DNA from: an uncultured Selenomonadales bacterium
Lineage (GTDB): Bacteria; Bacillota; Negativicutes; Selenomonadales; Selenomonadaceae
DNA length: 64,000 bases
Direction: 5' to 3'
Assembly: GCA_946183785.1 (NCBI GenBank)
Contig: CAMHCS010000006.1
Coordinates: forward strand, 1-64,000
Positions 35,992 to 53,740 of the stretch are shown in pieces. The position numbers and the translations under genes were made by a program. Below the pieces are notes generated by a model that was not told where the DNA came from, made no database searches, and saw nothing but the letters and a program-made list of their open reading frames with translations. Each line of letters begins with the position of its first letter. Position 1 is the first letter of the stretch.

Positions 35992-35998
35992 GATGATA

Positions 35999-38182
35999 TC
36001 ACCCTAAAAAACGTATGCCCATCATTGTAATGTCGTCAGTCTGCTCCGCCTCGCCCACATGCAGGGCGACGTCCGAGCGGACGGCCTCTAAAATCTCCTT
36101 GGCCGAAATATCCGATACGTCTATGCGGTTCAGCGTCTCCAACAGCCGGTCCTCTCCGTAAAGCTCCTCTTTCTCATTCAGAGCCTCGGTTACGCCGTCC
36201 GTGTACAGAAACAATACATCCCCAGGGGCAAGCACCGTTTCCTGTTTTTGATAGTTTATCCCTTTCCTTCCCCCAAGAACGAAATTGCGGGCCACCGCAA
36301 GAAAGGAGAACCTGCTCTCCCCTGCTCGATAGACCAAGGGCGGATTGTGCCCCGCATTCACATACTCGAACATTCCTGTCCGCAGGTCCAGGATACCGAT
36401 AAAGGCGGTCACGAACATCCTCTCCGTATTCTCCTGCCGCAGTTGATCATTGACACGGGCAACCAGTTCCCCGAGACTTCCGCAATTCGTCCCTAAAACA
36501 AAATCCTTCAGCATCGTCTTAGCGATGACCATGAACAGCGCCGCGCCGGTCCCCTTGCCGGACACGTCGGCCATGGTGACGGCCAAATGGTTGTCGTCCA
36601 CCAGATAGAAATCATAGAAGTCGCCCCCGACTTCCTTGGCCGCTTCCATGGAAGCATAGAGATCCACTTCGGTCCGATCCGGATAGGCAGGGAATCGATG
36701 GGGGATCATGCCGGTCTGGATGTTTGCGGCCAGGTCCAGATCTGCGGATATTCGCTCCTTCTCTGCCGTGATATGTGAAAGATTCTCCATGTACGCCTTC
36801 AGGTCTCTCGTCATATCATTGACAGAATTTGCCAAATCCTCCACTTCGTCCCCTGTATTGATAAGGATCTTTTTATCCAGGTTCCCGGTTGCAATTTCCC
36901 GCACGCCCTCCGTCAATTTAAGGACGGGTTCCACAAATCGTTTTGCCGATCTGCAGCTTCTGAAATACAGTCCCCCGAAGACCAGCAGCAGGAGCAATGC
37001 CAGCTTCCATAGATTTCCTACCAGAGAAGAATGCATCCTCGCAGCAAAATTCCCTTCTCCTGTTGATATACTATCCCGTGCAGTCTTCACAGACGACATG
37101 GCTTTCTCCCGATCGATGAGCGTACCGAAACTCCATCCTACGGACGGAATGGGCACATAGGCAAGTTCATATTCCCTTCCTTCTAACGTCACACGGGCAA
37201 TTCCGCTCTTTCCTGCCACCATGTCCTTTGCCGCCTGTGCAATCGTCGGCTCCGATATGTTCCTGAGATCCGCGGCGCCCTCGAAAGAAACCGCCAAAGG
37301 TCCCTCCTTCAGAGAAGAAAACATAACCGTTCCGTTTTGGTTCAGGGCAAAATTGATATCTGTGTCGGAAATGGACCGGTCCGCCATTATCCGATACAAG
37401 GAATCCAACTGCAGGGCAATACCCGCCACGCCTGCGAATTGTTGCCCGCTGTAATAGGGCGAGTAGCAAATAACTATCGATGAATGTTCGTTTTCGGTAT
37501 AGATAACAGTAAACTCTCCCTTTCCGGCTTGTTCCGCCTTCTGATACCGAGAGATGTTTCGGGAGGCGAACGCCGGATGGTTCTCCACTGTGCGGATAAT
37601 TTCGTAGTCATTTTCTTCGGAAAAGAGGTTTGCGCAAATCAAGTAGCCGTCCCGAGAAGCGACAAAACTGGAACTTTGATATTTCTGATACGAGTGTAAT
37701 ATGATTTCGAGATCATCTGCGATATTGGATGCCAACCCTATTTCCTCCGATAATGCGGAGTCCATCTCCTCTGGGTTCTTGGCTGCGGGCGTGAAAAGAA
37801 CATACGCTTCTCCCGAGGATACGCGCTGTCCTGCAGGGGACGGAAGGCGACGGAGCGAATACCGCTCGGGATGTGCCAAAATCCTCTCCATGGAATTTGC
37901 GATATACTGCGCGTCCTTCTTGAGGAAGTCTAACTCATGATTTACCAGCCGTGCTTTCCCCTGCGCCACTTCTTCCAAATGCCGCTTGGTTTGGTCAACG
38001 GCCTTTTCCTCCCAAATGGCAAGGACAGAGTTCCCCATGGTTTCGGCGTTTTCCATCACTATATCCTGAACGCCGTAGATACTCCGAAGAGAGACCGTTC
38101 CCATGGCTAAAAGGGACAGCAGACCTGCCCCTAAAAGAAACCGCAGAATCCTCCGTTGGATGTCTATTCTTCGTTTCCCCAT
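35999..38182 (-). CDS. SpoIIE-family serine phosphatase with Cache-like sensor and HAMP (copy 2)
   Basis: This protein of about 727 aa has the same architecture as its downstream neighbour: helix near 20-40, Cache-like sensor (SGEAYVLFTPAAKNPEEMD; YSPYYSGQQFAGVAGI), helix near 395-410, HAMP, and SpoIIE phosphatase. The sensor is clearly different from copy 1, while HAMP plus phosphatase are encoded by the identical tract. So the two proteins probably feed different signals into the same target. I prefer the ATG at 38182 (GGAAGGAAA in front); in-frame alternatives lie at 38203 (ATG) and 38206 (TTG). It lies about 170 bp after the arginase-like gene. Confidence 0.9.
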   Translation of the reverse strand: MGKRRIDIQRRILRFLLGAGLLSLLAMGTVSLRSIYGVQDIVMENAETMGNSVLAIWEEKAVDQTKRHLEEVAQGKARLVNHELDFLKKDAQYIANSMERILAHPERYSLRRLPSPAGQRVSSGEAYVLFTPAAKNPEEMDSALSEEIGLASNIADDLEIILHSYQKYQSSSFVASRDGYLICANLFSEENDYEIIRTVENHPAFASRNISRYQKAEQAGKGEFTVIYTENEHSSIVICYSPYYSGQQFAGVAGIALQLDSLYRIMADRSISDTDINFALNQNGTVMFSSLKEGPLAVSFEGAADLRNISEPTIAQAAKDMVAGKSGIARVTLEGREYELAYVPIPSVGWSFGTLIDREKAMSSVKTARDSISTGEGNFAARMHSSLVGNLWKLALLLLLVFGGLYFRSCRSAKRFVEPVLKLTEGVREIATGNLDKKILINTGDEVEDLANSVNDMTRDLKAYMENLSHITAEKERISADLDLAANIQTGMIPHRFPAYPDRTEVDLYASMEAAKEVGGDFYDFYLVDDNHLAVTMADVSGKGTGAALFMVIAKTMLKDFVLGTNCGSLGELVARVNDQLRQENTERMFVTAFIGILDLRTGMFEYVNAGHNPPLVYRAGESRFSFLAVARNFVLGGRKGINYQKQETVLAPGDVLFLYTDGVTEALNEKEELYGEDRLLETLNRIDVSDISAKEILEAVRSDVALHVGEAEQTDDITMMGIRFLG
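36023..36915. repeat. 893-bp direct repeat, copy 2 (HAMP plus phosphatase domains)
   Basis: Partner of 33835..34727. The tract begins at the fourth to fifth codon before the stop of this gene and ends within the linker before HAMP. Confidence 0.9.
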
Positions 38183-38355
38183 TTTCCTTCCCCGCAACGG
38201 CATCAAACAACAAGGAGATTGCCTCTTCTTATATCGGGCTTCGTCAATCCTCGGGCTTCAAGACGGCATTGGCTCTTGTCGGCTTAAGCGCTGCAATCGC
38301 CGCCGTCTTCCTTTAGACGGGCAATTTCCTGCCTTTGGCCTTGTTCTGCATATCC

Positions 38356-39231
38356 CTATAACTGTAAGAATTCCAGCTCCATAACCTCTGAAAGCCGTGA
38401 CAAAAACTCCCTTTCCACGAACGCCGCACGATCATGGGGCAAGTATCCCGAAAACGAAGAACGGCAGATATCGATCGCCATAGGAACTGCTCCAGATGCC
38501 GCCAAATACGCAAGGAGCCGTTCGATGCGGCGGACAATCGTTTCTTCATCAGCAAGCCCGGGCGGGAGAAAATGCTCCCGATAGACAAGATAATACTTCC
38601 CGGCGTCCGCTTTGACATGTAACAGCCTTCGGGGCAATATCCGGAAAGGATGATTTTTATCCGCCCAATATTCCTCATAGGCCTCGGCGGTAATCTCCAA
38701 ACGTTTTTCCGGCACACTGGACAGACTGTCGTCCCAGCAGAAATAGTCCAAGTCCACGTCCAGCACGATTTTTCCCAAAGGAGCGGGATGTTCTTCCAGC
38801 CCGCCGTTTATCCATGTAAAAAAATGATAGCCGCTGGACGGGTCCTTTTTCTTCGGCGCATGGAGAAACGGAACATAGTCCCAGCATTTTAGCTCGCTTT
38901 CCGACCGGCGGAAGACAACCTTTTCCTTTGGGCAGACGTCCATCGGCTGAATGTTTTTCAGAATGTGCACCGTTGAAAAAAAACCATAGTAAACGGCAGG
39001 GATAATGAAGTCCGCTATGCCCAGGGCACGGTCCAGGCACTGCCGCGCCTCAGCAGCCGTCTCAATCCTTAGGCTGAAATCCCAGTCGTAGCCTCCGCAC
39101 TCCATATCGTCATGATGGTCAATATGCAGGAGATAGTTACCCATTGCGGGAATGATCCCCTTCTCCCGAAATAAATGCCAGGCCACGAAGGCCTCATGAT
39201 GCTCGTCGACAAAAATAACAGGAATATTCAT
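38356..39231 (-). CDS. UPF0489 family protein, predicted peptide arginase (Arg to Orn)
   Basis: This 291-aa protein opens with VIFVDEHHEAFVAWH and LLHIDHHDDM (36-42), and has IVLDVDLDYFCWDD at 156-167; these His/Asp clusters resemble the two Mn-binding motifs of ureohydrolases. From family knowledge, UPF0489-type proteins include OspR-like peptide arginases that convert Arg side chains in RiPP precursors to ornithine. Its position, overlapping the TolC-like gene by four bases (ATGA) at the end of a Nif11/NHLM locus whose three cores all end in Arg-rich tails, supports that role. The family assignment is firm; the activity is inferred. Confidence 0.8.
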   Translation of the reverse strand: MNIPVIFVDEHHEAFVAWHLFREKGIIPAMGNYLLHIDHHDDMECGGYDWDFSLRIETAAEARQCLDRALGIADFIIPAVYYGFFSTVHILKNIQPMDVCPKEKVVFRRSESELKCWDYVPFLHAPKKKDPSSGYHFFTWINGGLEEHPAPLGKIVLDVDLDYFCWDDSLSSVPEKRLEITAEAYEEYWADKNHPFRILPRRLLHVKADAGKYYLVYREHFLPPGLADEETIVRRIERLLAYLAASGAVPMAIDICRSSFSGYLPHDRAAFVEREFLSRLSEVMELEFLQL

Positions 39232-40658
39232 GGCTCCTCCTCAAGATGCATGGAAGCCGCTTTCAGCGCGCGGGACGAAGACTTTCCCATCTCCACTCCC
39301 TCGACATAGTCCGGAACGCGGATATCAATCGGAGTGCCCATGGCCTTGTCCAAAGCGGCTTTGGCTATATAATAATTATACAAAGCGGTTACATAATTCG
39401 TCTCGGCCTGGACCACGTTGTCCTGGGCGTCAGTTACCACCAAAATAGTATCTATTCCCTCGATGTAACGAAGCTGTCCCAGCATGTATGCCTCTTTGGC
39501 CGTTTCCACCGAATCGGCCGCAGTGGCGATATTGCGCTCTTCCGTACGCAAAGAGGTATATGCTTTGCTGACTTCCAGTTCTATCTTTTCAGTGGTCTGA
39601 GCCGCCTGCGACACGGCTTTATCTAATGCAGACCTGGCTGCTTTCACATTGGCTTGGGTGACGCCGTTGTCAAAAGGGCTCCAAACGACATTTAACCCGC
39701 CTTCCCAATTATCCAGGGTATGATCATCCCTGAAGGGGGACTCTCCGCTCAAATTTTTGCCGACGACGATGCCAATACTGGGACGGTATCCTGACTTGGC
39801 TGACCCTACATCTGATTCTGCCTGCTTTACGGCATATCGAGCCGCCGCTCCATCCGGACGGTTGAGCATTGCATACGATAAAGCTTCCTCCATGGATATT
39901 TCATAGTGCCGGTACTGAAATGAATCGTCCACTTCCAATTCCTCTGTTACAGGGAGGCCTATCAGATTATTGAGCTCGGCACGGGCGTTGTCACGATCGC
40001 CCAGCGCTGAAATAAGCGTTTGCTGCTTGTCAGCCAGCTGTACTTTGGTTGACAACACGTCTGACTTGGCGATGACTCCCTCCTCATAGCCAGTTGTCAC
40101 CGCCTGCAAATGCTCCGTTACTGAATTAACTGCTTCCTGCGCCACAGTCACCAAAGCATTGCGTTGCAGGAGATGATAGTACGCCTCGGCTACCTGATAT
40201 TTCACAGTCTGTTTCGCATGTTCCAGCATCAGGTCGGCAGCGTGCAGTCCATAGAGAGCCGAATCGATCTTGCCTTCCTGATCTCCGCCTGTATAAAGAG
40301 GGATCTCCATCCGGACGTCGTTTTCAAATTCTGATTTAAAAGCAGGAATGGAGGAATCCAAGTCGTGAGCCCGCCGCAACTCCTCATAATATTTTCCGCC
40401 AATGCGGTTGGCCGTTCCCTCCCAAGTAACTTTCGGCCCCATGAATCGACGCGCCGCCATGTATTCATTAGCGGCTTTTTCCCTGTCGCTCCTTGCCTGC
40501 TCAATATCCCGATTGTTTTCCAGCGCCATTTCGATGCTTTCTTGCAAAGTCAACGGTCTTGCATAGGACGAATTCATTGACCCCCATGACAGCAGGAAGA
40601 AAGCCAACGTCCCGGCAGTTGCCCGCCCGAACCGGGAAAACACAAGATTTTTGCTCAC
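39228..40658 (-). CDS. TolC-family outer membrane efflux protein
   Basis: This 476-aa protein has a signal sequence (to about residue 32 of the mature start), then the repeated TolC layout: LTLQESIEMALENNRDIEQ, helical coiled-coil regions, and the second repeat with SYAMLNRPDGAAARYAVKQAESDV. It should form the outer-membrane channel of the exporter encoded upstream. I start at the GTG at 40658, seven bases after GGGAGG; a longer reading begins at 40703. Its presence shows the host has an outer membrane. Confidence 0.88.
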   Translation of the reverse strand: MSKNLVFSRFGRATAGTLAFFLLSWGSMNSSYARPLTLQESIEMALENNRDIEQARSDREKAANEYMAARRFMGPKVTWEGTANRIGGKYYEELRRAHDLDSSIPAFKSEFENDVRMEIPLYTGGDQEGKIDSALYGLHAADLMLEHAKQTVKYQVAEAYYHLLQRNALVTVAQEAVNSVTEHLQAVTTGYEEGVIAKSDVLSTKVQLADKQQTLISALGDRDNARAELNNLIGLPVTEELEVDDSFQYRHYEISMEEALSYAMLNRPDGAAARYAVKQAESDVGSAKSGYRPSIGIVVGKNLSGESPFRDDHTLDNWEGGLNVVWSPFDNGVTQANVKAARSALDKAVSQAAQTTEKIELEVSKAYTSLRTEERNIATAADSVETAKEAYMLGQLRYIEGIDTILVVTDAQDNVVQAETNYVTALYNYYIAKAALDKAMGTPIDIRVPDYVEGVEMGKSSSRALKAASMHLEEEP

Positions 40659-40671
40659 AGTCTTGCCTCCC

Positions 40672-43443
40672 TCATGATACCTGCCGCTTGACCATATCAG
40701 CAAACAGGCCCCCGCGCTTCACCAGCTCTTCATAATTTCCGCTTTCTATCAGTCGCCCTTTATCCAGTACCAGTATGCGGTCACAGTCTTTGATGGTGGA
40801 TAAGCGGTGCGCCACCACGATACGGGTGACGTGCATCTTCGTCAAGCTTCGGGTGACAATGGCCTGGGTACGATTATCGAGAGCACTGGTGGCCTCATCG
40901 AAAATCAGGATAGACGGTTTCGCCGCCAAAGCACGGGCAATTAGAATGCGCTGCCTCTGTCCCCCGCTGATATTTGAACTGCCCTCGCTGATAACCGTCT
41001 GCATTCCCATGGGCATTTTACGTATGTCCTCAGCAATGCCGACCGCCTCTGCGGCATCCCACGCATCCTCCATCGACAGAGCCGTGGTCCCTACAATATT
41101 TGTAAAGATGTCTCCGGTCATCAACTGTCCGTTTTGCAGGACCACTCCCATCTGGGCGCGAACCGAAGAAAGCGACAACTCCATTAAATCCTGTCCATCA
41201 TAATAGACAGCCCCCTGCTGTGGTTCCTCAAATCCAAGCAACAGGCGCACCAAGGTGGATTTGCCGCAGCCGCTTCGCCCCACAATGGCCACGTTCTCCC
41301 CCGCTTCGATACGAAAGCTCACGTCATGAATCACATCGGGCGTATTTTCATTGTAAGCAAAAGTGATATGACTGACTTCGACGGCGCCGGTCAGTACGTC
41401 TGCGTCGACCCTGTCCTCGTTGATTTCCGGCATGGTCTCCAGCATGGGACGAAGGTTTTCGATATGCGGCTTGATGGTGAAAAGCTGCCCCATCAGCGGC
41501 ACAAAAGAATTGATTGTCATATTCAAACTGATAAAGGCTGATTCAAAGGCTAAGAACTGGGCATAGGCAATACCGATCTCATTCTTGTTTACGACATAAA
41601 ACACGATATAGTAAAGAGCCAAGGAAAGCAGGAGCGGCTGCACGGAGCTTATGATACCGCTGTAATTCTGCCGCCACCTCATTTTCAGATTCCATTGCCA
41701 TTCCTTGCCGAAGGATTTGCTCCACAGAAGATACGCTTCTTCCTCCGCTCCCTGGATGCGGAATTTGGCCAGACCATTGAAAATCTGCTGCACGATGCTG
41801 GCCGTGTTGTTCTCCGCCTCGATCTTATTGGCCTGCAAAACCGCTGTCCCGCGGTAAATCAAAAACATAACAAAAAGGTAAACGCCCCATACCGCCAGCG
41901 CAGCCACAGTCAGCTTCAAATTGTAATATGCCATGAGCAGGAGACTCCAGAAAGAGCAAATCACATTAAATGCCGTTGCGACAAATTCCTCATTTATCAC
42001 GGTCTTAATTGCCTGCAGACTGCTCATTCTCTGCGCCATCTCGCCCGTCGGGAAACGGCGGAAGAACTTTGCGGGAAAAGTAAGCACCCGCCCCCACAAC
42101 GCGGCTTCAGTCGCCATATCCATATGGGTCGTGATTCTGAGAATCGCTATGGAACGAACCATGGCCAGCGCCGCCATGGTGAAGGCGGCTACCATGGAAA
42201 CCTGCGTGACAGTAGCCAATCCTTGCCGGTCGAGAATCGGAATGATATCCTGAAAAATAGTTTCCGTGATAACAGGCGTGATCAATGGGATTATCCCTGC
42301 CACGATGCTGGCAAAGAGAACCGCGTGCCAATCCACATTCCAGCAATGGTCGACCATAAACTTGAACAAATCCCGAACCTTCATCTGTTTTGTCGGAAAG
42401 CCCGCATAACAGGCAAAGGCCCGCTTATCTATCCTGGCCGCTACGGATTCCGTAACCTCGCAGCCGTTCGGCTCCTGCGCGCTCACCATCCGGTACTTCC
42501 CAATCTCATCAGGAACCAGCGCTACGAGATCCTTCTTTTCCCCGTAATAGCCGATCATGACCCCGCTGTCCTTCTGATGCCAATTGTCCACGAGGTCAAT
42601 GAGACGTATCTGCATATTGCCTTTCTGGATCAAACGCCGGATAAGCCCTACCTGATCAAGCTTCTTCACGACGTCCGGCGACAGGCTGATATTGCCCGTC
42701 GGCATCCCCAACGCTTTGGCGACCTTGTTGACAATAAAAGCCACCCGATCCGTTTTAGACAGATTCTCGACAGGTTCCCGATAAGCAAGCTCACGGCCGG
42801 TCAGGCTTTCCATGGCGGTTCCTAAAACCGCCTTTTTATTGTTTTCTCGCGCATTAAGCCTTTTTTCCAGTCTCTTATCCTCAGACCGAAAACGGCTGCC
42901 CAGCAGCATGGAAAAAATAGCTTCATTTTCCTCGAATTCTTCCAGAATTCCAGCTTCATCCGATTCCTTGTCCTGGAAAAGCGAGCCGTCCTGCCAACGC
43001 CTTAATTCCTCATCGCCGCCCTTATCCGCGATGAGGCGCAGCCATGGCAGTTCCATAAGCCGCCCGAACCATTGCCGCATAAGTCCTGACTGAGTCCCGA
43101 CGTCCATCCCCTGGAAAGGAATCAGGTCTATCGTTGCGTCCTCCGTGGCAAAAAGCGTTATATAGATTCGGCCAAACTCGTCATGGGACGGATACGCCGT
43201 CTCGTTTTTTCCCAACTTCATCAAAAAAATCTGTCGGAAGGAAATATCCCGCTGGCTAACCGCATAGACCTCCACGCTGCCGCTGGTCAACAGGGCAAAA
43301 ACGGTATCGTCGGTCAGGTGATAGCGCTCCCCGGCTTTAAGCTTCAAAGCCTGTTCCCTCCCTTCCTCATTCAATAGGCTCAACAGACTCTGTCTCATCT
43401 TGGTCGGACTTGTCTGCCAGGAGACGGCTGTACGGGCCGTCAT
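40672..43443 (-). CDS. NHLM-type bacteriocin exporter ABC permease/ATPase (ABC2 type)
   Basis: This protein of about 923 aa has an N-terminal cytoplasmic region of about 380 residues without a peptidase, including a cyclic-nucleotide-binding-like start and a degenerate mid-domain. Then a six-helix ABC transmembrane domain (about 390-680) and an ATPase with VGRSGCGKSTLVRL, NISGGQRQRILIARAL and LIFDEATSALD follow. The layout is that of the second NHLM (nitrile hydratase leader microcin) ABC protein, which pairs with the C39-bearing one. An internal ATG at 43398 could be the real start, which would cut the overlap with the upstream gene. Confidence 0.88.
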   Translation of the reverse strand: MTARTAVSWQTSPTKMRQSLLSLLNEEGREQALKLKAGERYHLTDDTVFALLTSGSVEVYAVSQRDISFRQIFLMKLGKNETAYPSHDEFGRIYITLFATEDATIDLIPFQGMDVGTQSGLMRQWFGRLMELPWLRLIADKGGDEELRRWQDGSLFQDKESDEAGILEEFEENEAIFSMLLGSRFRSEDKRLEKRLNARENNKKAVLGTAMESLTGRELAYREPVENLSKTDRVAFIVNKVAKALGMPTGNISLSPDVVKKLDQVGLIRRLIQKGNMQIRLIDLVDNWHQKDSGVMIGYYGEKKDLVALVPDEIGKYRMVSAQEPNGCEVTESVAARIDKRAFACYAGFPTKQMKVRDLFKFMVDHCWNVDWHAVLFASIVAGIIPLITPVITETIFQDIIPILDRQGLATVTQVSMVAAFTMAALAMVRSIAILRITTHMDMATEAALWGRVLTFPAKFFRRFPTGEMAQRMSSLQAIKTVINEEFVATAFNVICSFWSLLLMAYYNLKLTVAALAVWGVYLFVMFLIYRGTAVLQANKIEAENNTASIVQQIFNGLAKFRIQGAEEEAYLLWSKSFGKEWQWNLKMRWRQNYSGIISSVQPLLLSLALYYIVFYVVNKNEIGIAYAQFLAFESAFISLNMTINSFVPLMGQLFTIKPHIENLRPMLETMPEINEDRVDADVLTGAVEVSHITFAYNENTPDVIHDVSFRIEAGENVAIVGRSGCGKSTLVRLLLGFEEPQQGAVYYDGQDLMELSLSSVRAQMGVVLQNGQLMTGDIFTNIVGTTALSMEDAWDAAEAVGIAEDIRKMPMGMQTVISEGSSNISGGQRQRILIARALAAKPSILIFDEATSALDNRTQAIVTRSLTKMHVTRIVVAHRLSTIKDCDRILVLDKGRLIESGNYEELVKRGGLFADMVKRQVS

Positions 43444-45598
43444 GCTGTATCATGTCCCGATGGGTGCCTCGTTCCACCACCCGGCCCTGATTCAGCACGA
43501 TGATTTCATCGGCGTCCCGTATCGTGGACAGTCGATGGGCGACAATAAAACAGGAGCAGCCCCTTCGCCGTATGTTTTCCAGTATCACCTGCTCGGTCAC
43601 AGGATCAAGGGCGCTGGTGGCTTCGTCCAAAACCAGAAGCGACGGATTCACGGCCAGTGCGCGAGCAATTTCCAAACGCTGCCGCTGGCCGCCGGAAAAA
43701 TTCAGTCCGCCCTCGGACACTTTGGCCTCGTACCCGCCGTCCAACCGCAGAATGTCCTCATGGATGCATGCATCCATGGCCGCCTGTATAATATCGCTGC
43801 GACGCAGGGAGTTATCAAACAAAGATATATTTTCCCGTACGGTGCCTGTAAGCTGAAATATATCCTGATCGACGGCAGACAAAGATCCCACGATCACGCG
43901 GCGCGGAATCTCCCGCCGATTCACACCGTCAAACAATACCTCCCCGGACCACTCTTCATATAAGCCGGTGAGAATCTTGGCCAACGTCGACTTGCCGCTG
44001 CCGCTGTATCCCACAATGGCTACCCAGTGTCCCGGTTCCAGGTGCACGTTGAAATTTTCCAGAAGAGGCGGTTCCATCGGGCTATACCCGAAGGTAACAT
44101 TTTTGAATTCCACTTCGCCGGAAAGCCGCGAAGAGGGAAACTTCATTTCGCGGTCCGCCGGGGGATAGTTCAAACTGTCGATCTCATAGCGGCGTACATC
44201 GTCCAGACGCTGCATCTGCGTCTCCGTGGACTGCAATACCGAGCCCAGAAGAATCATCTTGTTGACAGGTTCCTGGAAACTATCCATGAGCTTTTGGAAC
44301 GCCATAAAGATACCGGCCGTCATGACGCCTTCCATGATGGAAAAGCCTCCCAATGTCATGATGATAGCCGCGTTGAGTCCGTTCACCAGCGTGGGAAGAA
44401 CCGAAGCCGTCAGGGACCAGATCTGCACCTCTTGGACTCCCAGCAACACCTTGGCATGATATCCCGCCCACTTGGAAAAGAAATCACTCTCATTGCCGTT
44501 GGCCTTGATGCTCTCTATCATCATCAGACCGTTCACCACGGTGCCGAACTCCTTGCCCTGGTCCTGCTGGATGCGCGTGTTCATATCCGTGAGCTTGCGC
44601 CGCAGCAGAAGGAAAACCGCGAAATCCACCAGACTAAGCCCCACGCCGATGACAGTCAAGGACACGCTGTATTGCAGCAGCAACAAAAGGTAAAAAACGG
44701 CCACCAAAAAATCCAATGCCACCGTGGCCGCAGAGTTCGCCAACACGTTGGCCACCGATTCATTGAACGCTATGCGTCCCGCGATTTCCGCCGAATACCG
44801 CTGCTGGAAAAAAGTGATTGGCAGCCTGAGCACATGCCAAAAGAAGCTGGACGAATCCGCCAGCGTCAATTTTTCCTGCCATCGGGTAAGAACCATCGCG
44901 CGCAAATAAATCATAGCCAGACTGAGACACAGGGATATTCCCATAGCTATGCACAGGTTGGACATCCAATCCGGCCGCTTGCCCGTCAGAATATCATCGA
45001 TAAAAATCTGATTGAACACAGGGGAAGCCAGACCGGGAAAAATCAGCCCCAGTCCGATGAGCATCGCGAAAATCATAGCCCACTTATCTTCCATCAATTT
45101 AGCGGACACGGCTCTGACTATGCTGTAGCGCTGCCCTGCCCGCTCAAAATCGGCCGCAGGCCTTACCCAAAGGGCTACCCCCGTGTAGGAAGTACGAAAC
45201 TCCTCCCACGGCACCTCCCTGCGCCCCATGGCCGGATCATTCAGATAAGCGACGCCGTCTATGATTCCTTCCAGCACTACAAAATGGTTGAATTCCCAAT
45301 GGAGAATCAAGGGGAAATCTTCCTGTTGTTTAGTCAAGAGCTTGTCGGCAGGCCATCGATAGCCTTTCGCCGTGCAATTGCGGTTTTCGGCTGCCTGCAA
45401 AATGCAGTACGCATTTGAACCGTCACGGTTTACCCCGCATTCCTGCCGCATTTTTTCCAAAGGAATCCACAGACCATAGTGGGCTAATACCATAGCCAAT
45501 GACGCCGCTCCGCATTCGGTTGCTTCCATCTGCAGTATGGTAGGTACCTTCACCCGGGGTCCCTGAGAGCGCCAGAGCCGTAGAATTCTATCCAGCAT
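43367..45598 (-). CDS. NHLM-type peptidase-containing ABC exporter (C39 protease)
   Basis: This 743-aa transporter has an N-terminal C39 protease: Q23 and C29 in LQMEATECGAASLAM, H105 in HWEFNHFVVLEG and D121 in LNDPAMG form the usual set. A six-helix membrane domain and an ATPase ([42 protein letters not shown]) follow. The protease should cut the Nif11 leaders after the double Gly during export. It starts four bp after the HlyD-like gene stop. Confidence 0.93.
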   Translation of the reverse strand: MLDRILRLWRSQGPRVKVPTILQMEATECGAASLAMVLAHYGLWIPLEKMRQECGVNRDGSNAYCILQAAENRNCTAKGYRWPADKLLTKQQEDFPLILHWEFNHFVVLEGIIDGVAYLNDPAMGRREVPWEEFRTSYTGVALWVRPAADFERAGQRYSIVRAVSAKLMEDKWAMIFAMLIGLGLIFPGLASPVFNQIFIDDILTGKRPDWMSNLCIAMGISLCLSLAMIYLRAMVLTRWQEKLTLADSSSFFWHVLRLPITFFQQRYSAEIAGRIAFNESVANVLANSAATVALDFLVAVFYLLLLLQYSVSLTVIGVGLSLVDFAVFLLLRRKLTDMNTRIQQDQGKEFGTVVNGLMMIESIKANGNESDFFSKWAGYHAKVLLGVQEVQIWSLTASVLPTLVNGLNAAIIMTLGGFSIMEGVMTAGIFMAFQKLMDSFQEPVNKMILLGSVLQSTETQMQRLDDVRRYEIDSLNYPPADREMKFPSSRLSGEVEFKNVTFGYSPMEPPLLENFNVHLEPGHWVAIVGYSGSGKSTLAKILTGLYEEWSGEVLFDGVNRREIPRRVIVGSLSAVDQDIFQLTGTVRENISLFDNSLRRSDIIQAAMDACIHEDILRLDGGYEAKVSEGGLNFSGGQRQRLEIARALAVNPSLLVLDEATSALDPVTEQVILENIRRRGCSCFIVAHRLSTIRDADEIIVLNQGRVVERGTHRDMIQHDGPYSRLLADKSDQDETESVEPIE

Positions 45599-45602
45599 CC
45601 GA

Positions 45603-46565
45603 TCACCTGCTTCTCAGCCACTGACTGGCTTTATAAAACACGTGCTCAATAGGGGGACGTCGTTCAATGACAATGGAGCCGGTGACAAAACTGCCTGCCG
45701 TAATGGGCTTATGTTCTCCCACCACGCTGGTCCAGAGATATCCCGACTCCGAATTCTCGTCCTTCACCAACTCAAACTTGACTTCCATCAACGCGCTGTT
45801 CTGGGTCTGCTGAATCCATTGCGCCAGTTGGGCGTTTCCCAAACCCTGCTCCACCACTTGAGCCGGTACGGGATATTGGGATACGGAACGTACAATGCCA
45901 ACTAAGCTCCCGGACTGCGACACATCCACGCCATTAGGCGCCAGCTGGATATCCATGCCCGGTTCCACCCGCTTCCCCTTATCCACAGGTATATACAGCA
46001 AGCCGGTCAATTCCTCCCGGTCCTGCGTCAGACGGATAGTACAGATAGGGCGCCCCGCTTCGATAACGCTTCCCTTTTCTACCATAACTTCATCTACGAT
46101 GCCGTCATAGTCGCTGTAAAGATTCTCCGCAACGTTTTGCTGTTCTTTCTTTGCCCCATATTGGTAAACACGCTCCATGGCGTTGCGGTCATCCGTCGCC
46201 AACCCCATCCCGTACTTTGCCATACGAGTATCGGCTAACTGGTCGGCCTGCTCCAATTGGGCGATTAAATCCCCGCGCTTCACCTTGCTGCCATTTTTTA
46301 CAAAAATCTTCTTCAGCTTACCGGGAGAAATATGGGAAATATTTACGATTCCGGCAGAGTCTAAAATCAATCCCATACCGTCGGCCTTTACGGTGAACGC
46401 CCCGAAAATCGACCAAATCAGCACCGAAACGAGCAGAACCCCTATGGCCGCAAGGCTCATCCATCCCACGGGCGTGGTTACCGGCAGCATCATATCCAGC
46501 CGTTCCGGGGAACGCAATTTGTCCAAGGCTTCTTCGCTGAAAATTTCCGAATTATCTGCAGGCAT
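45603..46565 (-). CDS. NHLM bacteriocin system secretion protein (HlyD family)
   Basis: This 320-aa adaptor has one transmembrane helix (about 33-55), a lipoyl-like half near 80-110 (SPGKLKKIFVKNGSKVKRGDLIAQL), no long coiled coil, and a barrel domain. The N-terminal FSEEALDKLRSPERLDMML is typical of NHLM HlyD-like proteins. The gene overlaps the next adaptor gene by one base (TGATG-type), so both are co-translated. It should link the ABC pair to the outer membrane channel. Confidence 0.9.
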   Translation of the reverse strand: MPADNSEIFSEEALDKLRSPERLDMMLPVTTPVGWMSLAAIGVLLVSVLIWSIFGAFTVKADGMGLILDSAGIVNISHISPGKLKKIFVKNGSKVKRGDLIAQLEQADQLADTRMAKYGMGLATDDRNAMERVYQYGAKKEQQNVAENLYSDYDGIVDEVMVEKGSVIEAGRPICTIRLTQDREELTGLLYIPVDKGKRVEPGMDIQLAPNGVDVSQSGSLVGIVRSVSQYPVPAQVVEQGLGNAQLAQWIQQTQNSALMEVKFELVKDENSESGYLWTSVVGEHKPITAGSFVTGSIVIERRPPIEHVFYKASQWLRSR

Positions 46566-47794
46566 CAGTTTTCCCTTCCTTCCTCCAGTTTTACCTCGGC
46601 CTTCATTCCATTCTCCAACCCCTCGACGTCGGATATGATCACGATCTCCCCCTCCGCGATACCGGAAAGGATTTCCACATATTCCCCGTCATCGATCCCT
46701 GCGGCTACAGTACGACGCTCAAGCGCGCCATCCGTTCCCAGAACGAATGCTTCCGTACGGGAAAGATCCAACGCCGAGAGCGGTACTGTCAATCCCCTGT
46801 GGGAAATATTGGATCGTACCACCAGATTGTTGTAATTTTGAGGCTCCAGTAATCCCGCGCGGTTGTCCACCTCAAAAAACACCGTCCGCATAGCGGCCGT
46901 CTCCTGGAGATCGGGTGAGATACTCAAGATACGCGCCGTAAGGCTCTGCCTCGCTCCGGCGTTGCCGGCAACGTATTTCGTGTCGTAAACCTTGGCAAAA
47001 TCGCTTCGGCTGAAGTCCAGACTGGCATTCTGCCCCACCGCTACTCCCTTTGCCAATACGTCTTCCAATGGCAGGGAAAAATAAAGCCGACGAAAGTTTC
47101 CTACCAATGCCAAAGGCGTTCCCGCATTGACATAAGAACCCAGCTGTTTGTAAATGAGCAGAACATCCCCCTCGATGGGAGCCTGTACCTGTGTATGATC
47201 GCTGTCGATAAGCAGTTGTTCCAACTGCGCCGTCAGAATATCCCTTTGGGCAATCGCCTGTTCCTGTAGGACCTGTGCTTCCTTATAACCGGCCGCCACT
47301 TCCTCAAACTTCTGCGGGGTAACTGCGTCCCTGGCCCGAAGCCTCTCATAGCGGCCGTAATCATTTTCCGCTTTAGCCAATCCTGCTTCAGCTTTTGCGA
47401 TATCGCTCTCGGCCTTCAGGATTTCAATCTCCGCCTGTCGAATTTTGCCGGGCAGCTGCTCATTGACCAGCCGAAACAAGATCTGCCCCTGCTTCACATG
47501 ATCGCTTTTGTGGACTTCAACCGCACTTATGCGCCCGTCCACAAGGGCAATGGCGTCGGTCATTTCATTTGAATAAAGATGGACTGTGTCCAGGGCCAGC
47601 CGCATTTTAATATCCTGCACCTTCGCCCTGGCGCCGTGCAGCGTCAGTTTCTTGTCTGCCGTACGGCTCTTGATATTGCTCTCTCCGGCCTGATTCAAAT
47701 AAGCGCCGTAGGAAATGACGACAACCACGATGCCCAAAACGACGCCCAAAGCAATAAGAAATATTTTTTTCACCGGTCCATCACCACTCCTCAT
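46565..47794 (-). CDS. RND-type periplasmic adaptor (membrane fusion protein)
   Basis: This 409-aa protein has an N-terminal helix (about 9-30), a lipoyl half-motif (DGRISAVEVHKSDHVKQGQILFRL), a coiled-coil hairpin (about 115-190), the second lipoyl half (APIEGDVLLIYKQLGSYVNAGTPLALVG), a beta-barrel and a membrane-proximal domain. It is the AcrA/HlyD kind normally paired with TolC. Two different adaptors in one operon is unusual. A GTG at 47773 with GGAGTGG in front is an alternative start. Confidence 0.85.
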   Translation of the reverse strand: MRSGDGPVKKIFLIALGVVLGIVVVVISYGAYLNQAGESNIKSRTADKKLTLHGARAKVQDIKMRLALDTVHLYSNEMTDAIALVDGRISAVEVHKSDHVKQGQILFRLVNEQLPGKIRQAEIEILKAESDIAKAEAGLAKAENDYGRYERLRARDAVTPQKFEEVAAGYKEAQVLQEQAIAQRDILTAQLEQLLIDSDHTQVQAPIEGDVLLIYKQLGSYVNAGTPLALVGNFRRLYFSLPLEDVLAKGVAVGQNASLDFSRSDFAKVYDTKYVAGNAGARQSLTARILSISPDLQETAAMRTVFFEVDNRAGLLEPQNYNNLVVRSNISHRGLTVPLSALDLSRTEAFVLGTDGALERRTVAAGIDDGEYVEILSGIAEGEIVIISDVEGLENGMKAEVKLEEGREN

Positions 47795-50090: not shown

Positions 50091-50426
50091 TCACCAACGA
50101 CGGCGGTGGTTCCTTGTACACGTATCTACACACCTAGCACTGGCTGCAACTGCGGCGATAGCAGAGCCAATGCCAAATATTATGGCAGGAACAACACAAC
50201 CGCCTGACACAGCCTTCAGACGGTCTTTGCCAAGCTCCTCGCCGCCCTCCACCTGCCGAACTATTTCCTCCCACATGGCGTTGATTTCTTCCACCGAGAC
50301 TTCGGCGCCTTTGTCCTTCAATGCCTGCTGCACTTCCTCCGCAGTCTCCATCTCCAAGATTTTTTCAACGAACGCTTGATCGGACAACACTTCCTTTAAT
50401 TTTTCCGCACGCTGTTCATCTGTCAT
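50091..50426 (-). CDS. Nif11-leader RiPP precursor peptide 1
   Basis: This 111-aa precursor has a 76-residue Nif11-type leader (KLKEVLSDQAFVEKIL, AEEVQQALKDKG, VEEINAMWEEI) ending in LKAVSGG at 75-76. The predicted core (77-111, 35 aa) starts with Cys, is hydrophobic and Ala/Gly/Ile-rich, has Cys at 77, 99 and 103, and ends NHRRRW. The leader should be cut by the C39 exporter. The start is ATG after GGAGG. It is the nearest of the three precursor genes to the radical SAM gene. Confidence 0.9.
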   Translation of the reverse strand: MTDEQRAEKLKEVLSDQAFVEKILEMETAEEVQQALKDKGAEVSVEEINAMWEEIVRQVEGGEELGKDRLKAVSGGCVVPAIIFGIGSAIAAVAASARCVDTCTRNHRRRW

Positions 50427-50453: not shown

Positions 50454-50801
50454 TTACCAACGACCTCTTGTCAGTGTGTCTGCCAACGAGATCCCCGAAG
50501 CGGCAACAGTTATCCCAGTCCCCGTAAAGAGCGCCTTGAGCCCCAGTGAAACCGCAGACCCAATAACGCCACAGCCTCCCGCCACGTTCTTCAGCTGTTC
50601 TTTGTCAAGCTCCTCGCCGCCTTCTAACTGCTGAATCATTTGCCTGTGAATCTCGTTGATTTCCTCCAACGAAAGGTCGACGCCTTTCTCCTTCAATGCC
50701 TGCTGCACTTCCTCTGCAGTCTCGATCCCCAGCAATTTCTTGACGAATTCCTGATCGGCAAAGATTTCTTCCAGTTTTTTCACACGTTCTTGCTCTGTCA
50801 T
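50454..50801 (-). CDS. Nif11-leader RiPP precursor peptide 2
   Basis: This 115-aa precursor has a 76-residue leader very like those of its neighbours, ending LKNVAGG. The core (77-115, 39 aa) starts with Cys, is rich in Gly/Ser/Thr/Leu/Val and ends TRGRW. The ATG at 50801 is nine bases after AAGGAG; an in-frame ATG three codons earlier abuts the ribosome site. Intergenic gaps on either side are 25-27 bp. Confidence 0.9.
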   Translation of the reverse strand: MTEQERVKKLEEIFADQEFVKKLLGIETAEEVQQALKEKGVDLSLEEINEIHRQMIQQLEGGEELDKEQLKNVAGGCGVIGSAVSLGLKALFTGTGITVAASGISLADTLTRGRW

Positions 50802-50826
50802 TTTGTACATCTCCTTTGTTCCTGTT

Positions 50827-51150
50827 TTACCAACGCACCCGTCCTAAATGAAGTCCGAGCGCAGTCGCCTGGACTGCTGCGCTGATGGCCGCACCTACCG
50901 CCATAGCTGTTGTAATAACGAACCCCCCTGCCACGTTCTTCAGCTGGTCCTTGTCAAGATCCTCGCCGCTCTCCAGCTGCCGCACAAGTTGATTGTGAAT
51001 CGCTTTGATTTCCTCCACCGAAAGGTCGACGCCTTTGCCCTTCAATGCCGACTGCACTTCCTCTGCAGTCTCCATCTCCAGTATCTTCTTGGCGAATTCC
51101 TGATCGGCGAAAGCCTCCTTTAGCTTGGTGATACGCTCTTGGTCATTCAT
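50827..51150 (-). CDS. Nif11-leader RiPP precursor peptide 3
   Basis: This 107-aa precursor has a 76-residue leader ending LKNVAGG; the core (77-107, 31 aa) has no Cys, is Ala/Thr/Val-rich and ends GRVRW. Lack of Cys shows that the shared maturation does not need Cys. It is the first precursor gene in transcription order, after GGGGG and eight bases. Confidence 0.9.
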   Translation of the reverse strand: MNDQERITKLKEAFADQEFAKKILEMETAEEVQSALKGKGVDLSVEEIKAIHNQLVRQLESGEDLDKDQLKNVAGGFVITTAMAVGAAISAAVQATALGLHLGRVRW

Positions 51151-51272: not shown

Positions 51273-51737
51273 TTAGAAACACAGCCTTTTCAACGCCTCT
51301 ATCAGATTCTTCCGGTTTACGGGCAATCTCGATCCGCCGGCCACCCGGCGCAAATCTTCAGCCCCCATCTCTTCGCGGTCTTCTTCCTTAGCCGCCGCAT
51401 TACAGCAATCCCTTAATTCCGCCGTGGATAATATCAACCCCTTTCCCTCCAGCAGCGCCCGAACCTCATCAATGGACTTCATCCCTGCCATTTTATGAAG
51501 CATCGTCTCATCTGCCAGTATTTCCTGAAATTTGGAAAGCTTCTCCCGTTCCGTCGGCGCATCCGTGCTCTCCATAGGACTATGGCATTTCAAGCCTTCC
51601 TGTATTCTTTGCCAAAGCCTTTCCCGAAGAAGAGGGTTTTCTGCTGCAAAATCAACCTGCTGAAAAGCAGTTTCCAGTTGTGTGATAATCATAGCGTCGT
51701 CATGGTCCGACTTGTTCCGTCCGTCCCCGACTGTCAT
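51273..51737 (-). CDS. Nif11-domain protein with N-terminal extension and GG-tailed 19-aa peptide
   Basis: This protein of about 154 aa has residues 1-60 unlike the precursors (Asp/Glu-rich, with LLRERLWQRIQEGL), then a Nif11-like domain (KLSKFQEILADETMLHKM, SIDEVRALLEGKGL) ending in LRRVAGG at 134-135. The tail (136-154) is short, basic and amphipathic and ends RLCF. It lies directly downstream of the sigma gene, so it could be an atypical precursor, a signal peptide or a sigma regulator; the sequence does not decide. Start ATG at 51737, 12 bases after GGAGGG; upstream ATG at 51764 has no ribosome site. Confidence 0.7.
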   Translation of the reverse strand: MTVGDGRNKSDHDDAMIITQLETAFQQVDFAAENPLLRERLWQRIQEGLKCHSPMESTDAPTEREKLSKFQEILADETMLHKMAGMKSIDEVRALLEGKGLILSTAELRDCCNAAAKEEDREEMGAEDLRRVAGGSRLPVNRKNLIEALKRLCF

Positions 51738-51811
51738 TGATGATCCACTCCCTCCTCTGCTCATATATACAATATTGCATCTCAAAATGTGACACCCTGA
51801 ACAAAATTTTT

Positions 51812-52330
51812 TTATTCATTTTGAACCATCTTTCGGCACTTCTGCAGCAGACGATGATATCGCTGCCTGACCGCCGATTCCTTCACCCCGATGATCCCGG
51901 CCACCTCCTCGTTGGTAAGGCCGACGCCGTAACGCAGTTCCAAAAGGCTGCGTTCCTCTGGCGAAAGGCCCTCCAGAAGCTTTTCCAGCCACAGGCGGAC
52001 AGGAGCCTGCAGAGAGTCGTCCTTTCCGATCTCCTCCGGAGCAGCCGTCTCCGGTATTTCGCCGATAACCTCATGACGAAAAGCCGACCGTTTCCAAAAA
52101 TTACGCACAGCGTTTCGGGCTATGGCATAAATCCAGGCAGTGAGAGTTCCCCTCTCCTCATTCCATTGCGCCAGATTCTGAAAAACCGATATAAAGATAT
52201 CTGCCGTTACGTCCTCAGCGTTCTGCCGATGGAGCAGCTGCCCGTAAACATAATTATAAACGCCGGCATAATATTTGTTGTAGATGCCTTCCATCTCGGA
52301 AGCAGCCCGTTCATCCTGCAATCCTTCCAT
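51812..52330 (-). CDS. RNA polymerase sigma factor, ECF subfamily
   Basis: This protein of about 172 aa has region 2 (IYNKYYAGVYNYVYGQLLHRQNAEDVTADIFISVFQNL, then LTAWIYAIARNAVRNFWK) and region 4 (LSPEERSLLELRYGVGLTNEEVAGIIGVKESAVRQRYHRLLQK). No region 3, as in ECF factors. The ATG at 52330 has AAAGG seven bases in front; an ATG at 52354 is possible. It is the first gene of the leftward RiPP locus and the obvious candidate regulator of it. No typical transmembrane anti-sigma gene follows. Confidence 0.88.
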   Translation of the reverse strand: MEGLQDERAASEMEGIYNKYYAGVYNYVYGQLLHRQNAEDVTADIFISVFQNLAQWNEERGTLTAWIYAIARNAVRNFWKRSAFRHEVIGEIPETAAPEEIGKDDSLQAPVRLWLEKLLEGLSPEERSLLELRYGVGLTNEEVAGIIGVKESAVRQRYHRLLQKCRKMVQNE

Positions 52331-52628
52331 CCTGATACCTTTCTGCCCAATCATATCCTTGCCCGGGAAATATCGCGATTCCCATGCTTATAGGAGAACA
52401 GCGAAAACCTTGCCAACTTGCAAAAAGAGGCATAAAGAACGCTTTCCATCCAACAGCCTGTAAAAGGCAACAACGCAAAGCGCCCTCTATGCCTCCACTG
52501 ATAACCATAGGAAGGAAAAGAGATACAAAGTATGTTTGCTCAACACTTTGAATTATATCAACATTTTACAAAAACGGCAATATTGTCTAAAGAAATGTTC
52601 GCCGTAAATGCGGTAATATCCAAATCAT
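52331..52628 (-). other. Leader and upstream region of the ECF sigma gene, no recognised gene
   Basis: This stretch holds the sigma-gene promoter (52552..52580) and a roughly 200-nt leader. A 65-codon reading frame overlaps it and runs into the sigma gene, but I do not support it as coding. The remainder up to the STAS gene is the repeat at 52629..52750. Confidence 0.4.
52552..52580 (-). promoter_or_regulatory. Putative sigma-A promoter of the ECF sigma gene
   Basis: Minus strand: TTGCCG (52575-52580), 17-bp spacer, perfect TATAAT (52552-52557), about 220 bp upstream of the sigma start. Confidence 0.5.
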
Positions 52629-52750
52629 ACTAGAAACTGTTAAAATCATTTGATTTTTACAGTTTCTAGTATGAGACGTCAGACGAGCCACAGGCTCGGC
52701 TGTAGCGTGCGTAGCACGCGTCTCACCAATTGAATCTTTCAATTGGTGAG
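52629..52750. repeat. Three-way-junction palindromic repeat, copy 2 (complete, with flanking hairpins)
   Basis: Three parts follow each other: hairpin ACTAGAAACTGT/ACAGTTTCTAGT (52629-52670); three-way fold with outer stem TGAGACG/CGTCTCA and arms GAGCC-ACA-GGCTC and GCGTGC-GTA-GCACGC (52672-52725); hairpin CTCACCAATTG/CAATTGGTGAG (52722-52750). It lies six bases downstream of the STAS stop and may also end that transcript. Confidence 0.65.
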
Positions 52751-52755
52751 TAGTA

Positions 52756-53058
52756 TCAGTCTTCAATCTTCATAAAGTCGCTGAATCCTGTAAGATTCAG
52801 GACGTCCATGACCACAGGCCCGACATGAACCAGCCTCATATCCCCACCGGCCTCGTCCATCATATCCTGGGCAAGAAGGATAACTCTCAGCCCCGCAGAG
52901 GCCACATAGGTGACCCCCGCCATGTCGAAAGTCAAATCCGTGATTCCCGTGAGGCTTGATTGCACTTCCTGTTCCAGTGTTTTTGCCTCTTTAGCTGCAA
53001 GCCGTCCGGCCAGATGGACGGTAAGCGCATTTCCGTTCTGCTCCTTCTTGATTTCCAT
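52756..53058 (-). CDS. STAS-domain anti-anti-sigma factor (RsbV/SpoIIAA type)
   Basis: This 100-aa protein has the typical antagonist fold: GNALTVHLAGRLAAKEAKTLEQEV and FDMAGVTYVASAGLRVIL. The Ser in YVASAGL (about residue 56) is the expected phosphorylation site for the kinase encoded 19 bp upstream. Dephosphorylation by the SpoIIE phosphatases at 33.8-38.2 kb would close the switch. Confidence 0.92.
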   Translation of the reverse strand: MEIKKEQNGNALTVHLAGRLAAKEAKTLEQEVQSSLTGITDLTFDMAGVTYVASAGLRVILLAQDMMDEAGGDMRLVHVGPVVMDVLNLTGFSDFMKIED

Positions 53059-53077: not shown

Positions 53078-53515
53078 TCAGACCATTCTTTTTTTTACCG
53101 TCAGTATATTTTTTCCGTCACGCCATTCATACCGGATCTCATCCGCTATATCTATGACAAGGAAAATCCCCAGTCCTCCTCTTTGACGGTTTTTAGCGCG
53201 TTTACGAACGGCATCCGCAGAGAGAGTCTCTTTTCGCTCCAGAGGATTAAATTTTTTCCCGCTGTCCTCAAAGACCAACGTAATGATATAATCGGAATCT
53301 TGGGATATGCGGCCCCGGACATCGGCCTGTCCTGTCCCCGGTGCATAAGCATAGTTGACGATATTTACGAAGACTTCCTCCACTAAGATGTCCAGCTTTG
53401 CCCGCATTTCATCCGTACAGGGCACATCCTTCAGCAGCTCGTCCACGAATTCGTTGACCACGTCCAGCCCGTCCAATGTAGCTTCAACTGTCAATACAGC
53501 TTCTTTGTCGCTCAA
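53078..53515 (-). CDS. Anti-sigma factor / serine kinase (RsbW-like HATPase)
   Basis: This 145-aa GHKL ATPase has the N box EEVFVNIVNYAY, G1 EDSGKKFNPL and G2 RQRGGLGIFLV. It should phosphorylate the STAS partner and bind a sigma factor or other target. The start is TTG (53513-53515), seven bases after GGAGG. Its sigma target is not evident; the only sigma gene nearby is of ECF type, which is not a classic RsbW client. Confidence 0.9.
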   Translation of the reverse strand: MSDKEAVLTVEATLDGLDVVNEFVDELLKDVPCTDEMRAKLDILVEEVFVNIVNYAYAPGTGQADVRGRISQDSDYIITLVFEDSGKKFNPLERKETLSADAVRKRAKNRQRGGLGIFLVIDIADEIRYEWRDGKNILTVKKRMV

Positions 53516-53662
53516 TGAGGCGCCTCCTCTCCCGTCCAGCCTTAAAAAGGCCGTTAATATTGCCTACACAGGGGGATGCTCGTCTCCGCGCAGTACGGAA
53601 AACAATAACAACAAGGAAAAACTCTTTGGAATGACCTCCCACAATCATTCATAACTTATACC

Positions 53663-53740
53663 AGAAACTGTTAAAATCATTTGATTTTTACAGTTTCTGC
53701 ATGAGACGTCAGACGAGCCATAGGCTCGGATGTAGTATTA
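53663..53740. repeat. Three-way-junction palindromic repeat, copy 3 (truncated)
   Basis: The first ~70 bases (AGAAACTG...CAGTTTCT, ATGAGACGTCAGACGAGCC, AGGCTCGG, TGTAG) match 52632..52703 almost exactly and in the same orientation. The second arm and closing strand are missing. Together with copy 2 it brackets the STAS/kinase pair in direct orientation. Confidence 0.65.

Follow-up and report, generated by a model that had tools for sequence, protein, structure and literature searches.

Gene content of the NHLM cluster

The window (the whole stretch of 64,000 nucleotides of DNA that was analysed) contains an NHLM-type peptide export cluster with all its genes on the minus strand (Table 1). Both the C39 peptidase/ABC exporter (NHLM ABC1) and the HlyD-type secretion protein scored above the cut-offs of their models. 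The genes form an operon-like run headed by a housekeeping-type promoter located ~220 nt 5' of the start of the sigma factor gene, and this was the only promoter standing out. A shared ECF promoter motif upstream of the precursors was not found by enumeration of 4-mer pairs, a search that was swamped by the coding repeats of the tandem precursors. The named relatives in the genus of the window genome are rumen Schwartzia.

Table 1 Features of the cluster and of the FU protein in the window (positions of the whole stretch)
Feature	Position	Strand	Evidence or remark
Partner-switching genes	52756..53058, 53078..53515 and 33781..38206	-	
Sigma-A-type promoter TTGCCG-17-TATAAT, TG before -10	52552..52580	-	10 of 12 consensus positions
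ECF sigma factor	51812..52330	-	Sigma70_r2 1.9e-12, r4 5e-13
FU protein, 154 aa: FU domain, Nif11 leader and 19-aa tail	51273..51737	-	
FU N-terminal domain, aa 16-50 (...QLETAFQQVDFAAENPLLRERLWQRIQEGLK)	51588..51692	-	two predicted helices, common to relatives
Diverged Nif11 leader, aa 63-135	51333..51551	-	homologous to the leaders of precursors 1-3
Minimal C39 recognition segment EMGAEDLRRVAGG: M-12, L-7, V-4, GG	51333..51371	-	register per PMC6363468, PMC10885120
19-residue basic tail SRLPVNRKNLIEALKRLCF	51276..51332	-	predicted helical
Nif11-type GG precursor 1	50827..51150	-	
Nif11-type GG precursor 2	50454..50810	-	
Nif11-type GG precursor 3	50091..50426	-	
Radical SAM/SPASM maturase, 627 aa	47951..49834	-	
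Periplasmic adaptor, RND-type membrane fusion protein	46565..47794	-	TIGR01730 2.8e-41
NHLM HlyD-type secretion protein	45603..46565	-	TIGR03794 224.9 bits, above cut-off
NHLM ABC1, C39 peptidase/ABC exporter	43367..45598	-	TIGR03796 952.7 bits, above cut-off; Peptidase_C39 5e-30
Second exporter ABC protein (NHLM ABC2)	40672..43443	-	position and homologues in related clusters
Outer-membrane factor, TolC-type	39228..40703	-	homologues and sequence inspection

The sigma factor contains only the sigma70 regions 2 and 4, which identifies it as one of the ECF type. Its reading frame is open from an ATG at 52354 (51812..52354), and we agree with the initial annotation in preferring the ATG at 52330, which has AAAGG 8 nt upstream. 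The same annotation had described a Nif11-domain protein behind the sigma factor, and this order holds, with both genes on the minus strand and an intergenic gap of 74 nt. The follower protein (hereafter FU, follower of sigma) starts at ATG 51737, preceded by the ribosome binding site (RBS) GGAGGGAGTGG, and its stop is at 51273; the longer TTG start of the ORF list is superfluous. It ends in DLRRVAGG followed by SRLPVNRKNLIEALKRLCF, a tail with a net charge of about +4 and one Cys, so that the double-glycine motif (RRVAGG) and the 19-residue basic tail that had been noticed at this end are indeed there. The double glycine lies in the C39 register (M-12, L-7, V-4, A-3, GG).

The Nif11 half of the protein is 29-35% identical to precursors 1-3 (E 6e-9 to 9e-7), contrary to the earlier view that it was unlike them, and the protein differs from these neighbours only in its N-terminal domain and its short tail. 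The Nif11 leader model TIGR03798 matched aa 70-135 with an E of 5e-4 and 20.3 bits, below the cut-off of 32.3, and precursors 1-3 also remained below it (30.2, 27.1 and 25.7 bits). Compared with the Nif11/N11P RiPP precursors (Haft 2010, PMC2887384; TIGR03798), the C-terminal half is a diverged Nif11 leader with GG, but the protein has an extra N-terminal domain. By this score and this domain it does not fit the identity of a plain Nif11 precursor.

The maturase carries ~300 N-terminal residues without domain assignment ahead of the radical SAM domain. Behind the exporter genes there is a UPF0489 (PF12640) protein (38356..39231, minus strand). Some members of this family are peptide arginases that convert Arg to Orn, OspR for example. 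Precursors 1-3 have Arg-rich ends (GRVRW, TRGRW and HRRRW), and ornithine-containing products are possible.

The FU family and its leader-like end

The N-terminal part of the protein had been taken for a unique stretch of 60 residues. Actually, a search with the window protein alone in 151 genomes of Selenomonadaceae retrieved 20 proteins, mostly reading frames of 75-108 aa and nearly all matching in the N-terminal part only, and many more were found with profiles. By these comparisons the N-terminal part represents an undescribed family, to which we have given the name FU. The domain consists of ~35 residues around a D-F-A/S motif, and the core M-D-x-L-F-R-x-x-D-F-A-A-[ED]-x-P-x-L-x-E-R-L-W-x-[KR]-I or a close variant was present in 20 of the 20 relatives. 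All of them finish in a leader-like segment (usually R-E-L-S-E-D-E-L-x-x-L-A-A-A-G) that was not the basis of their detection. In its usual form this end, a stretch of 13 residues that follows the domain, is E-L-x3-[DE]-x-L-x2-V-A-A-A-G. A broader profile adds a second group of FU proteins, which have x-F-D-F-S-x-[CLF]-[SH]-x-[VI]-[KR]-x-x-L and the same leader end.

There is no model for FU in Pfam or NCBIfam, nor did the domain match any curated model of the known anti-sigma families in these collections (class I, zinc-binding and others). A suspected link to DUF5667 gave no match and was dropped. The sequence search of the PDB produced unrelated weak matches only (EHD2, E 0.007) and no solved anti-sigma structure. 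The N-domain is predicted as two helices with low confidence, the structure predictions being weak (pTM 0.28 and 0.45). When 398 genomes were scanned with a pattern for the AAAG end, matches were few, and two of five were due to chance. No description of FU-type proteins was found in the open-access literature on NHLP/NHLM and sigma, Nif11 and sigma, or leader and anti-sigma.

For LahT150, a C39 protease, the last 13 residues of the leader suffice, with positions -12, -7 and -4 placed in the protease groove (PMC6363468). This register (hydrophobic -12, L/M/F -7, -4) was present in 45 of 46 FU proteins and in a mean of 0.4 after shuffling, a count of 45 that is partly due to selection because the profile behind the larger set includes the leader end, which is not the case for the 20 of 20 mentioned above. 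The short FU end shares its register with the Nif11/N11P leaders, but a Nif11 domain is absent from most FU proteins, which carry AA for GG and lack a core like those of their neighbours. The doublet at -2/-1 was AA in 41 proteins, GG in two (the window and L150) and AG in two. Since the register is present and the cuts reported for C39 exporters are after GG, GA or GS (PMC10885120), for most FU proteins binding by the exporter peptidase looks possible and cutting unlikely. The residue after the doublet is G in 39 of 45, and a P stands two positions beyond it in 17 of 45. A G behind the AA doublet agrees better with a structure that is kept than with a cleavage site that is free.

A complete Nif11 leader replaces the short end in two FU proteins, the one in the window and L051 (G096). 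The L051 fusion has kept a precursor-like RBS (GAAGG) within the reading frame, suggesting that translation of the precursor still has its own start; the window protein has no RBS before its internal Met. Release of the C-terminus of the window protein by the exporter, as the initial annotation proposed, is plausible, given the full leader register with GG and the C39 exporter in the operon.

In L148 (2648..3277, minus strand) the gene of an FU-domain protein overlaps an ECF sigma gene and encodes another, longer C-terminal domain without the leader end, and the FU of the Schwartzia locus L089 is truncated, so that the leader end is not strictly required. Two FU proteins from two distant families have a Cys4 zinc-ribbon-like end and no short tail (L095, 9881..10243, minus strand; L149, 2946..3329, plus strand).

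Association and co-divergence with the sigma factor

ECF sigma factors of the window subfamily were found in 18 of 121 Selenomonadaceae genomes, and FU in all 18. The usual order in the clusters of this subfamily is second ABC gene, sigma and then FU, directly or within ~3 kb; several Selenomonas clusters have FU 1-3 kb from sigma or divergent (L093, L094, L221). We read 46 NHLM clusters, some of them only in part: 37 had sigma and FU, five had neither (L092, L214, L215, L224, L228), four had sigma only and none had FU only (Fisher p 9e-5, which overstates independence because there are close relatives in the sample). Three of the four sigma-only clusters are short contig pieces and the other (L097) has an FU farther along the same contig. 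An FU gene is thus present in 37 of the 41 sigma-bearing clusters, a co-inheritance that, with the adjacency of the two genes, is expected of an anti-sigma factor, and all four NHLM clusters of the window genome carry both genes. At the level of whole genomes, NHLM ABC1 was above the cut-off in 58 of the 121, FU was present in 53 and both in 52 (Fisher p 3e-26, with the same overstatement). Of the six apparent exceptions with ABC1 and without FU, at least one (G027) does contain an FU of lower score in its cluster (L227).

Outside the family we used a broad FU profile built with one extra-family sequence (G235), the sigma factor not being used in the search. In 398 genomes of the phylum there were eight small non-Nif11 matches, G235 included, and seven of them directly adjoin an ECF sigma gene (G235, G165, G283, G450, G265, G177 and G452), with G391 as the exception. 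The sigma-adjoining matches span five other families. In G165, G283, G450 and G265 the start of FU overlaps the stop of sigma by 8-11 nt, as in translationally coupled pairs, and in G235 and G265 Nif11 precursors follow the pair. This distribution indicates that the sigma/FU pair is older than the Selenomonadaceae.

FU has also diverged together with sigma. Across 32 clusters the distances among sigma factors and among FU N-domains were correlated with a rho of 0.76 (permutation p 0.001), shared ancestry not being fully removed by this test. The partial correlation with sigma given ABC2 was 0.63 for the N-domain and 0.64 for the whole FU, whereas that of the whole FU with ABC2 given sigma was 0.07. 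The four clusters of the window genome form the same two pairs by sigma and by FU. The sigma factors of the window and C31 are 49% identical and their FU proteins 42%, those of C17 and C53 43% and 42%, and across the two pairs these values drop to 18-22% for sigma and 20-31% for FU. The four ABC2 proteins of the window genome are about equidistant (53-66% identical). Such tracking of sigma over the transporter is how a specific sigma partner should behave. Taken together, the pairing with ECF sigmas, the overlaps in distant families and the co-divergence strongly favour the sigma regulator that had been suggested for this position. For the secreted signal peptide, suggested at the same time, specific support was not found, since most tails are short and polar and their conservation does not extend beyond the genus.

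Possible role of FU and alternative explanations

We give a probability of about one half to the reading of FU as the regulator of its cognate sigma factor, most probably a small soluble anti-sigma factor with a leader-like end that would sense the exporter and produce a feedback. In the mechanism that we infer, the N-terminal DFA/DFS domain, predicted as two helices, would bind sigma, inhibiting rather than activating it, and the C-terminus would carry the segment by which the C39/ABC exporter, and perhaps also the maturase, recognises its substrates. When there is spare export capacity the exporter would engage the leader-like end and pull FU off sigma, and the precursor and exporter genes would be transcribed; when precursors saturate the exporter, FU would be displaced and sigma silenced. 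FU may in this way allow the cell to adjust the production of peptides to its capacity for exporting them. The AA-type proteins would be poorly cut mimics, with sequestration without cleavage as the output. Among the variants, cleavage with release of the tail is most likely for the window FU, with its complete Nif11 leader and true GG; a cut after GG would free the 19-mer and the sigma-binding fragment would stay inside. More tentatively, FU could be a new class of anti-sigma factor with a mimic of a RiPP leader as sensor, through which the C39/ABC exporter (or its occupancy by precursors) would directly switch the ECF sigma of exporter and precursors, by cleavage or sequestration, across Selenomonadaceae and further families of Bacillota.

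Among known systems, the flagellar type III system exports FlgM as an entire protein, and CnrY is membrane-anchored. In class II anti-sigma factors two helices clamp sigma2 and sigma4. The likeness to FlgM/FliA is that FU would couple the activity of a sigma factor to the state of a secretion machine, but FU would address a C39/ABC exporter by its leader end, and no more than its tail could be exported. With the class II anti-sigma factor CnrY of Cupriavidus, the two helices of which wrap an ECF sigma (PMC7406223), FU shares the ECF partner and the location near the sigma gene, and its short domain would have a similar layout if the low-confidence prediction of two helices holds; however, FU is predicted to be soluble, has no detectable sequence relationship with CnrY and ends in a peptide-exporter leader. 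Another possible output would be a cut after AA leaving a C-terminal -VAA or -LAA that resembles a ClpXP degron, comparable to the degron of RseA that is exposed by cleavage (PMC10202637) and to the documented C-terminal di-alanine of sigma-AntA (PMC7142297). Unlike RseA, FU has neither a membrane segment nor a site-1/site-2 protease, and the window copy would end in -AGG.

FU could also be the precursor of an exported pheromone, guided by its N-domain and leader end to the NHLM exporter and cut there at AA or GG, with a tail that acts outside and feeds back on sigma. The leader register does fit a C39 site, in the window copy GG is followed by a basic tail that is predicted to be helical, and the tails differ between genera, but we consider it unlikely, with the doublet being AA in 41 of 46 proteins, outside the documented GG, GA or GS sites (PMC10885120). 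Moreover, the G that follows the doublet in 39 of 45 and the P two positions later in 17 of 45 contrast with the precursors, which are variable after the cut. The tails are mostly short and polar, some of them zinc-ribbon-like (L095, L149), the N-domain tracks sigma and not the transporter, and a receptor gene was not identified.

The homology of its Nif11 half to the neighbouring precursors and its true GG would suit a window protein that is simply a fourth RiPP precursor with a fused FU domain, the regulation being lost and the tail alone matured and exported. A second fusion is known (L051), and it has kept the internal precursor-like GAAGG. Against this reading, the window protein has no RBS before the internal Met, and its tail lacks the long hydrophobic cores and the -RW ends of precursors 1-3. 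The sigma factor has been kept, and since no other FU was found in this cluster, the fused protein is its sole representative there. We consider a fourth precursor quite improbable. As to the sign of the regulation, the association data are all neutral, and a sigma activator or chaperone (co-sigma, stabiliser) with the same leader end would produce them equally. The anti-sigma gene of ECF sigmas is usually located directly behind the sigma gene, and activating partners are rare. The small FU gene directly behind sigma, overlapping it in distant families, has precisely this anti-sigma position, and we would give an activator very little credence.

If FU is indeed an anti-sigma factor that senses the exporter, this would account for the switching on of cryptic NHLM/Nif11 peptide clusters in rumen and gut bacteria, and a sigma factor would be under the control of small-peptide export capacity, in a manner comparable to flagellar genes and FlgM export. 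Deleting or overproducing FU, or expressing sigma, would provide a handle to awaken silent clusters, and an ECF sigma together with an FU ending in ..EL-x3-[DE]-x-L-x2-V-AAAG would be a search signature where FU is unnamed.

The window cluster is flanked by a partner-switching module with a STAS protein, an RsbW-like kinase and dCache/HAMP/SpoIIE phosphatases (Table 1), and parts of it recur around other NHLM clusters of the family (L092, L105, L142, L210, L211, L222, L223). In the cluster with the exporter and maturase closest to those of the window (L092, in G116), STAS and RsbW occur but ECF sigma and FU do not, which makes a second layer of regulation likely. The tandem SpoIIE phosphatases (33781..35991 and 35999..38206, minus strand) have different sensor halves and nearly identical HAMP and phosphatase halves, which look as after a recent duplication or gene conversion. 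One inverted repeat (agaaactgtaaaaatcaaatgattttaacagtttct) is found in two copies, on either side of the RsbW-STAS pair (~52620..52680 and 53660..53700).
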